From contig NZ_CP031311.1 of NCBI RefSeq assembly GCF_004799685.1, positions 2,845,355-2,909,354 of the forward strand: a stretch of 64,000 nucleotides of DNA, written 5' to 3'. The first letter of the stretch is position 1. The number at the start of each line of letters is the position of its first letter. Both the position numbers and the translations under genes were made by a program. The DNA comes from Halobellus limi (GTDB taxonomy: Archaea; Halobacteriota; Halobacteria; Halobacteriales; Haloferacaceae). The notes below the pieces were generated by a model, which saw only the letters and a list, made by a program, of their open reading frames with translations, made no database searches and had not been told where the DNA came from. Positions 22,225-23,600 of this stretch are shown one piece after another.

Positions 22225-23061
22225 TCACTCGTCGGAGTCGGCCGGGAACTCGTCGTCGGCCGTGATCTCGTCGAGATGCGCCCGTGAATAGAGGTCGTCG
22301 CGGTACTCCTCGTTCGGCGCCGCTTCCGAGCGGACGGGCGGGACGTAGAGCGTGTGGCTGGGGTGGACCTCCGCGGCCATCGATTCGAACGCCGACAGCT
22401 CGAACGTCTGGACGTCTCCCGACTCGAAGGGAAGCGTCGCGGCCCGGACCAGCGACACCTCGTGTGTCGGCGGGTAAAACCGCTCCAGGTAGCGTCGGAG
22501 TCGCGTGAACCGCTCGGGGGCGTTCGGCCTCGCGGTGTAGAGTCGGGACCCGACCGTTCCGACCTGGAAGAGAAACGCCGGAACCGACGGGGTCAGCGGC
22601 AGTTCCCGGAGCAGCAGGTCGTTCACCTCGAACATCTGCAGACCGGTCTCGAAGGGGTTCAGACCCAAGTCGACGTACATCGCGTCGAGCGACGAGATCC
22701 CCGGGCGGACGTCGACGTCGACCCCGGCCGCCTCCCCGCGGCGGACGATGTCGTCCGTCGGCGTGACGCCCACGGTCGGATGCCCGTAGGTGGCGAGCGC
22801 CACCGGTGAATCGGCGTCCGCAGCGGCGGAGACCACCCGGTCGACGATGCTGTCGTACGTCTCCGCCCGCGGTCGGCCCTCCTCGTACTCCGACCCGAGG
22901 CGTACGACGGCCCCGAAGCGGTCGGAGAGGGCCTCGGCCACGATGTCGTGGGGATGCAAGAGGAAGATCCGGTCCGAGCGATCGAGCGCGACGTCGACCT
23001 CGTCGGTCAGCTGGTTGCAGCCGACCATACCGAGTCCGACGACGTAGAGGCGAGTGGTGAT
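22225..23061 (-). CDS. Borosin-type peptide backbone alpha-N-methyltransferase (tetrapyrrole-methylase fold)
   Basis: A 278-aa SAM-dependent methyltransferase if started at the ATC at 23061 (267 aa from the ATG at 23028). From the ATC, RLYVVGLGMVGCNQLT is the Gly-rich SAM loop. The catalytic stretch YEEGRPRAETY (Y59, G62, R65, Y69) reproduces the OphMA catalytic pattern Y-x2-G-x2-R-x3-Y. TYGHPTVGV, VRPGISSLDAMYVDLGLNP and LFQVGTVG align in order with OphMA. The family methylates backbone amides of a RiPP precursor. The peptide gene directly upstream at 23131-23310 is the likely substrate. The fungal clasp and core region is absent, as in bacterial split borosins. The ATG at 23028 would cut off the first SAM-binding strand. 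The substrate pairing is inferred from sequence and position. Confidence 0.8.
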   Translation of the reverse strand: MTTRLYVVGLGMVGCNQLTDEVDVALDRSDRIFLLHPHDIVAEALSDRFGAVVRLGSEYEEGRPRAETYDSIVDRVVSAAADADSPVALATYGHPTVGVTPTDDIVRRGEAAGVDVDVRPGISSLDAMYVDLGLNPFETGLQMFEVNDLLLRELPLTPSVPAFLFQVGTVGSRLYTARPNAPERFTRLRRYLERFYPPTHEVSLVRAATLPFESGDVQTFELSAFESMAAEVHPSHTLYVPPVRSEAAPNEEYRDDLYSRAHLDEITADDEFPADSDE

Positions 23062-23072
23062 AGTGTTCCTCC
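23059..23072 (-). promoter_or_regulatory. Shine-Dalgarno GGAGG with ATC as probable start codon
   Basis: On the minus strand, GGAGG (23072-23068) is followed by AACACT and then ATC (23061-23059). The six-base spacing is ideal. The frame has no ATG, GTG or TTG between the preceding TGA (23133-23131) and the internal ATG at 23028. A strong SD placed exactly before the conserved N-terminus decides the start, even though ATC is a rare initiator. Confidence 0.6.
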
Positions 23073-23130
23073 GGGAGCGAGAAAAATCGCGGGTCGTGAA
23101 AAACGCCGGCGATCGAATTCCCGATCGCGG

Positions 23131-23310
23131 TCAGTTGTTAATGAGCCACGATCGCGGGTCGAAGTCGCCGTCCGGTTCCCCCGGAAGGCCGTCGACGTCG
23201 GAGAGTCCGTACTCCCGAAGGACGGCGTCGGGGTCGGCCTGGAACCGTTCACGCACTTCCGCGTCGGAAACGAGCGCTTTCTTGAGCGCGTGGATGTCGT
23301 CGCCTGTCAT
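23131..23310 (-). CDS. Borosin-like RiPP precursor peptide
   Basis: A 59-aa peptide, MTGDDIHALKKALVSDAEVR followed by ERFQADPDAVLREYGLSDVD and a tail ending DPRSWLINN. The first about 40 residues match the recognition helix bundle of split-borosin precursors: a short helix, then (D)-x3-L/V-x3-F/Y-x2-(N/D)P-(E/D)-A-V-(M/L)-x3-GL-(T/S)-(D/E). The Gly/Pro/Asp-rich linker then leads to a short hydrophobic end, SWLINN, the likely methylated core. It lies 69 bp before the methyltransferase start, on the same strand and in the same frame, with only its own TGA between them. Without the neighbour it would look like any small ORF; function is inferred. Confidence 0.72.
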   Translation of the reverse strand: MTGDDIHALKKALVSDAEVRERFQADPDAVLREYGLSDVDGLPGEPDGDFDPRSWLINN

Positions 23311-23417
23311 ACACGGTAGACGTTACTAGTCACCGACAAAAGTGTTTGGTCCCTGATTATGCGAGGGAAATCGGTCGGCAATAGGACTAAATAGTGGTAC
23401 GCCATACCATAGCGTGT

Positions 23418-23600
23418 ATGGCCTCAGCACCGAGCTCCGACGATGCGCTGTTCGACCAGTTCCTCGACGACCGCGGTCACGACATCGAGACAGTGGACTG
23501 GGAGACCTCGTATAACAAGAAGCAGTGTCCGGAGTGTGGTGCACTCCACGACGACTCGGCGTCCGTCTGCGGGGTCTGCGGGTGGGACCCCCGGACCTGA
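23418..23600 (+). CDS. Small zinc-ribbon protein (HVO_0416-like)
   Basis: A 60-aa protein with a disordered N-terminus and a four-cysteine zinc ribbon, CPECG...CGVCGW, near the end (NKKQCPECGALHDDSASVCG). It resembles the small haloarchaeal HVO_0416-type zinc-finger family; its function is unknown. The ATG at 23418 lies about 27 bp after CTAAATA (near 23387-23393), so the transcript is probably leaderless. It is divergent from the borosin-like precursor, sharing a 107-bp gap. Confidence 0.75.
   Translation: MASAPSSDDALFDQFLDDRGHDIETVDWETSYNKKQCPECGALHDDSASVCGVCGWDPRT

Follow-up and report, generated by a model that had tools for sequence, protein, structure and literature searches.

How is an enzyme translated when its gene offers no canonical start codon ahead of its first conserved strand? 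This question is raised by a two-gene locus of Halobellus limi, read on the minus strand of the window (the whole stretch of 64,000 nt of DNA that was analysed), where a short precursor gene is followed by a methyltransferase gene whose only canonical start candidate lies inside the conserved coding region. The features of the locus are collected in Table 1. The coordinates given in a preliminary description of this DNA all proved correct on the minus strand when rechecked, and we could likewise verify from the sequence that precursor and enzyme lie in one frame with the precursor TGA as the sole stop between them: the spacer measures 69 nt, and the methyltransferase frame is open from this TGA through to the stop at 22225. 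As set out below, we find it well supported that translation of the methyltransferase begins at an AUC codon, a start assignment to which we give a probability of roughly 80%.

Table 1. Features of the precursor-methyltransferase locus in the window.
Feature	Position	Strand	Remarks
Precursor, split-borosin-like, 59 aa, ATG start	23131..23310	-	23310 is the start of the ATG; TGA stop at 23133-23131; C-terminus DFDPRSWLINN
Stem-loop	23109..23128	-	Directly 3′ of the precursor stop, then CGGCGTTTTT; terminator-like, possible attenuator
GGAGG, Shine-Dalgarno motif	23068..23072	-	6 bases ahead of ATC; same spacing in the sister species G088
ATC, proposed start codon	23059..23061	-	Kept in G088; position agrees with homologue N-termini
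Predicted alpha-N-methyltransferase, TP-methylase fold	22225..23061	-	278 aa from ATC; coordinates include the stop
Internal ATG	23026..23028	-	Residue 12; only canonical candidate, not likely to be the start

When translation was begun at ATC, the product matched Pfam PF00590 (TP_methylase) from residue 4 onward (E = 2.3e-17). Its closest solved structures by sequence were SonM (9.2e-22) and then the fungal OphMA group, and a Foldseek search with an AlphaFold2 model as query (mean pLDDT 76.5) returned SonM as the best fold match (E = 5.9e-20), with OphMA weaker. Residues Y59, R65, Y69, and Y92, which are invariant in both homologue alignments (A1 and A3), align with Y58, R67, Y71, and Y93 of SonM, a residue matching that is our own, made from the SonM alignment; in SonM, these are described as catalytic positions (PMC8429565). 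A second species of the same genus (G088) carries an enzyme with 86% protein identity to that of the window, and comparison of the two genes gave a dS of 0.50 and a dN of 0.085 over 272 codons, i.e., a dN/dS of 0.171, with no stops in either frame, which indicates that the methyltransferase gene is under purifying selection.

The precursor gave a similar picture, with 46 identical codons among the 59 aligned between the two species, a dN/dS of 0.16, and an identical C-terminal end (DFDPRSWLINN). Taken alone, the window precursor yielded a weak LigA match below the cut-off; when six haloarchaeal precursors, among them that of the window, were combined into a profile, this matched SonA chains with E values from 1.3e-4 to 3.6e-4 and gallate dioxygenase equally well. 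The discrete 59-aa ORF that adjoins the enzyme we count as a precursor with a SonA-like binding domain. The locus is most likely a split-borosin-type precursor/enzyme pair with a predicted methylation activity, and it points to the existence of split-borosin-like pathways in haloarchaea; the literature searches made here turned up no paper that pairs borosins with haloarchaea. Of the four other aligned precursors, three are longer than that of Halobellus (70 to 78 aa) and the fourth has 60 aa; the Halobellus precursor is without their Val/Ile/Thr-rich tail.

The spacer and the first 33 nt of the enzyme contain zero ATG, GTG, TTG, or CTG codons in all three frames, such that the absence of ATG, GTG, and TTG described earlier for the interval between the precursor TGA and the internal ATG extends to CTG and to every frame. 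Since no spacer frame holds a canonical codon, an out-of-frame start followed by programmed frameshifting was rejected. The proposed ATC sits where the enzyme should begin: The preliminary description had placed GGAGG six bases before it at the expected N-terminus, and the N-termini of homologues agree with this position. It had also stated that a start at the internal ATG removes the first strand, which is borne out by the AlphaFold2 model, where strand 1 is predicted at residues 5 to 9; moreover, G9 and G11, both upstream of the internal ATG, are invariant in two alignments. Both this predicted strand and the Pfam match, which begins at residue 4, depend on codons ahead of the internal ATG. 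GGAGG occurs about 303 times across both strands of the window (435/3 + 474/3), and given this number, the chance of finding it at a spacing of 5 to 7 from any given codon is ~0.7%. The string GGAGG-N5..7-ATC, with 16 occurrences in the window, is not rare by itself, so the weight of the argument lies on its position and its conservation.

This conservation can be read from the sister species, where ATC likewise follows GGAGG-N6 and none of the three frames offers a canonical start up to the internal ATG, which is itself conserved. ATC is there the only ATN or NTG codon in the spacer/start interval. The start codon of a close relative had been named beforehand as a check on the assignment, and the answer is ATC, not ATG. 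Nucleotide divergence between the two genomes in this stretch is ~13%, and the stretch from TGA to GGAGG has otherwise changed, with a spacer of 69 nt in the window versus 66 nt in G088. The first ten codons from ATC are identical in both species, as compared with 166 of the 272 codons gene-wide, although this run is not unique, with another run of ten at codon 219. Ahead of the internal ATG, all 11 residues of the 11 codons are conserved, with one synonymous change. The conservation of ATC is that of one lineage represented by two genomes, G088 being the only relative so close among the 16 other genomes of the genus. Since G088 shares the ATC despite its independent divergence, a base error is excluded for practical purposes.

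The enzyme is present in 4 of the 170 genomes of the family, namely in the window's own, in G088, and at 45 and 41% identity in two others (G159 and G086, respectively), while wider searches of 392 genomes of the order and 391 of the class, which are overlapping sets, added five haloarchaeal genomes, and a Haloarcula plasmid added one further homologue record. A search of genome contigs gave 0 loci with the single protein and 6 with alignment A1, the sole haloarchaeal one being that of Halobellus clavatus; a search of viral contigs for the enzyme gave 0 matches, and a search of plasmids gave 0 records by DNA and 10 by protein. In all 13 other homologues examined (8 haloarchaeal and 5 bacterial), a canonical codon is available ahead of strand 1 and after the in-frame stop that precedes it. 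Among nine haloarchaeal spacers, GGAGG was found within the last 14 nt in both ATC genes and in none of the 7 others. Most simply, ATC would be a derived state of one lineage, in which it goes along with GGAGG. As a control, we took 48 conserved ORF pairs in synteny, of which 29 were dropped as ambiguous and 19 were kept. The canonical starts in 19/19 kept pairs are a result of this filter, which selects for them, and not independent evidence, and exceptions are thereby not countable genome-wide. GGAGG occurred within 20 nt upstream in 1 of the 19 kept pairs, and in this control the methyltransferase identity before the first shared canonical codon was 12/12.

As an alternative to a separate start, ribosomes could pass the precursor UGA-C, stimulated by the hairpin, and produce a precursor-spacer-methyltransferase fusion like a type 0 borosin. 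This read-through had been put forward in the preliminary description and is not supported; we consider it unlikely. In both species, precursor and enzyme share one open frame, across spacers of 69 and 66 nt, but after shuffling, 52% (window) and 67% (G088) of spacers are open as well, such that an open frame is expected by chance. The frame relation is not general either: among the 7 other haloarchaeal spacers that were measured, 3 have a length not divisible by three. In both species, C and then the stem-loop come after the UGA, an arrangement that could favor read-through. According to a 2021 review (PMC8211752), selenocysteine and pyrrolysine are the only known cases of stop read-through in archaea. 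The peptides encoded by the two spacers are unlike each other and rich in arginine, gaps in the DNA alignment break the frame, and the GC3 of the spacer is lowered to 0.61 (window) and 0.77 (G088) versus 0.89 and 0.86 in the gene, while the parts that are conserved are the hairpin and GGAGG; continuous coding constraint across the precursor-enzyme junction was not found. Borosin cores can vary fast, and a nonconserved linker is thus not decisive, but a fusion would leave the conservation of GGAGG-N6-ATC unexplained. Type 0 borosins, as described in PMC11395268, do show this order, which lends read-through a precedent; as they have an N-terminal core and a C-terminal methyltransferase already, the fused order, described earlier as the fungal design in reverse, would not be new.

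Translation might instead begin at the internal ATG, yielding an enzyme that is N-terminally shortened yet functional. This is the first canonical codon and it is conserved in G088; against it, the 11 codons upstream are conserved as protein and hold predicted strand 1 with the invariant G9 and G11, and the internal ATG is without an SD motif in the 16 nt upstream, which together make such a start very unlikely. A shade less probable again is leaderless initiation on a separate or processed transcript beginning near ATC. Haloarchaeal transcripts are often leaderless (PMC7531240), and oligo-T tracts do lie upstream of ATC, but the distance of the T5 tract to ATC differs between the species (-25 to -21 in the window and -21 to -17 in G088), and leaderless initiation was reported to depend strictly on AUG (PMC3986360). 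The idea that ATG was read as ATC by a sequencing error, from which it is one base away, or that the gene has decayed, is scarcely credible: The independent G088 genome has the same base at ~13% nucleotide divergence, and with this conservation and a dN/dS of 0.171 in a frame free of stops, neither a shared sequencing error nor shared decay can explain the locus.

For initiation at AUC, we envisage that the initiator Met-tRNA would pair with the codon through a third-base mismatch, aided by pairing of GGAGG with the anti-SD, and that the product would carry the N-terminus Met-Thr-Thr-Arg-Leu-Tyr, or Thr-Thr-Arg once Met is removed. The archaeal start codons named in a review (PMC7531240) are AUG, GUG, and UUG. 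Initiation would occur de novo at an internal site, because a spacer of 69 nt lies beyond the reach of termination-reinitiation, which in Haloferax volcanii was abolished at about 22 nt (PMC10666635). With reinitiation out of range and leaderless starts needing AUG, de novo internal initiation helped by GGAGG is what remains. We infer that initiation depends on this motif, which had earlier been called a perfect Shine-Dalgarno; the motif is present, but its helpful role is questionable, as SD motifs of 5 to 7 nt in H. volcanii 5′-UTRs had no positive effect and one of 8 nt repressed (PMC3986360). The SD of gvpH, on the other hand, did help initiation (reviewed in PMC7531240), and the literature on SD function in haloarchaea is thus divided. 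A weak start of low efficiency, backed by the terminator-like hairpin and U-tract that follow the precursor stop, would limit the amount of enzyme with respect to its peptide substrate, a function of the ATC that we infer from analogy with other systems (see below). In its full form, the proposal is a tentative one, which we hold to be possible and no better than that: Haloarchaeal ribosomes would start de novo at AUC, with a strong GGAGG six bases upstream, in a spacer that reinitiation does not bridge, and this start, weak by design, controlled by archaeal initiation fidelity factors and with the hairpin/U-tract as a second brake, would set the ratio of substrate to enzyme in an archaeal borosin pathway. 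The gene fits none of the easy Haloferax routes (a 5′-UTR SD, reinitiation, or leaderless initiation) and yet is kept functional, which makes it a compact natural test case for internal starts. Gene finders that are restricted to ATG, GTG, and TTG will truncate or miss such enzymes.

A search for stem-loops found the one in the spacer versus 0.3 expected in shuffles. Its 7 bp are kept in G088, with one compensatory pair from A-U to G-C, in a comparison of only two sequences. Taken as a whole, the start region folded no better than shuffles (folding energy z of -0.14 and 0.06). The window spacer has T5 tracts at 23099-23103 and 23082-23086, and a T5 tract occurs in 6 of the 9 haloarchaeal precursor-enzyme spacers (the others being L003, L012, L015, L016, and L029, of which L016 and L029 have identical spacers). 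These recurrent tracts may possibly act as partial terminators; T-tracts and some hairpins were reported to terminate partially in H. volcanii (PMC7237163).

Among known systems, the pair most resembles SonM/SonA of Shewanella oneidensis, a type IV split borosin, in having a separate precursor with a SonA-like leader followed by an alpha-N-methyltransferase of TP-methylase fold, with the same catalytic Tyr/Arg positions by alignment. Unlike SonM/SonA, the Halobellus pair, whose methylation activity is a prediction, has an archaeal host, a 59-aa precursor with a short WLINN tail, and an enzyme without a canonical start. Type 0 borosins share the order of core first and methyltransferase second that read-through would yield, whereas the Halobellus genes are separated by a TGA and a nonconserved spacer. 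For the start itself, we regard Streptomyces sigR as the closest functional analogue: With its GTC start behind AGGAGGTG, an SD that is strong and conserved, SigR is kept at a lower level than its partner RsrA (PMC5472188). Both genes belong to a two-gene unit in which one product is to be scarce relative to its partner, and in both a conserved noncanonical start stands behind a strong SD that is itself conserved, but sigR is bacterial, IF3-controlled, and experimentally proven, uses another codon, and has no peptide substrate. The infC gene, which starts with ATT in E. coli and with ATC in Streptomyces (PMC5472188), likewise has a near-cognate start that differs from AUG in the third base, but its product is the fidelity factor itself, and the gene is autoregulated. 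In archaea, an ATC start was inferred from alignment for L12ae of Staphylothermus marinus (Smar_1096; PMC2678158), also a gene without a valid start; it differs in encoding a ribosomal protein of Crenarchaeota, and conservation of the ATC is not reported in that paper's account of the gene. Lacking a canonical start in both species and in all frames, and with its unusual codon and SD conserved in G088, the Halobellus gene is best counted as a gene with a near-cognate start codon, one whose setting is unusual.

Several further features were seen at this and related loci. In G088, ~18.7 kb of extra DNA lies exactly between the region upstream of the precursor and the neighbor gene at 23394-23600 (window positions 23312-23375). 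Two successive small precursor-like ORFs precede a single methyltransferase in G159 (L004:936-1453). On the Haloarcula sp. CBA1115 plasmid NZ_CP010533.1 (L029:2228-5379), a precursor, a methyltransferase, and a prolyl oligopeptidase (PF00326 and PF02897) follow one another, and an ABC transporter gene lies close by; prolyl oligopeptidase is the kind of peptidase that is reported to cyclize the fungal borosin omphalotin (PMC12235650). In Halobellus clavatus (L017:2385-3113, minus strand), a borosin-like precursor, with divergent transcription relative to its methyltransferase, ends its frame with six tandem DDNIGYTGD repeats, a possible multi-core archaeal precursor.
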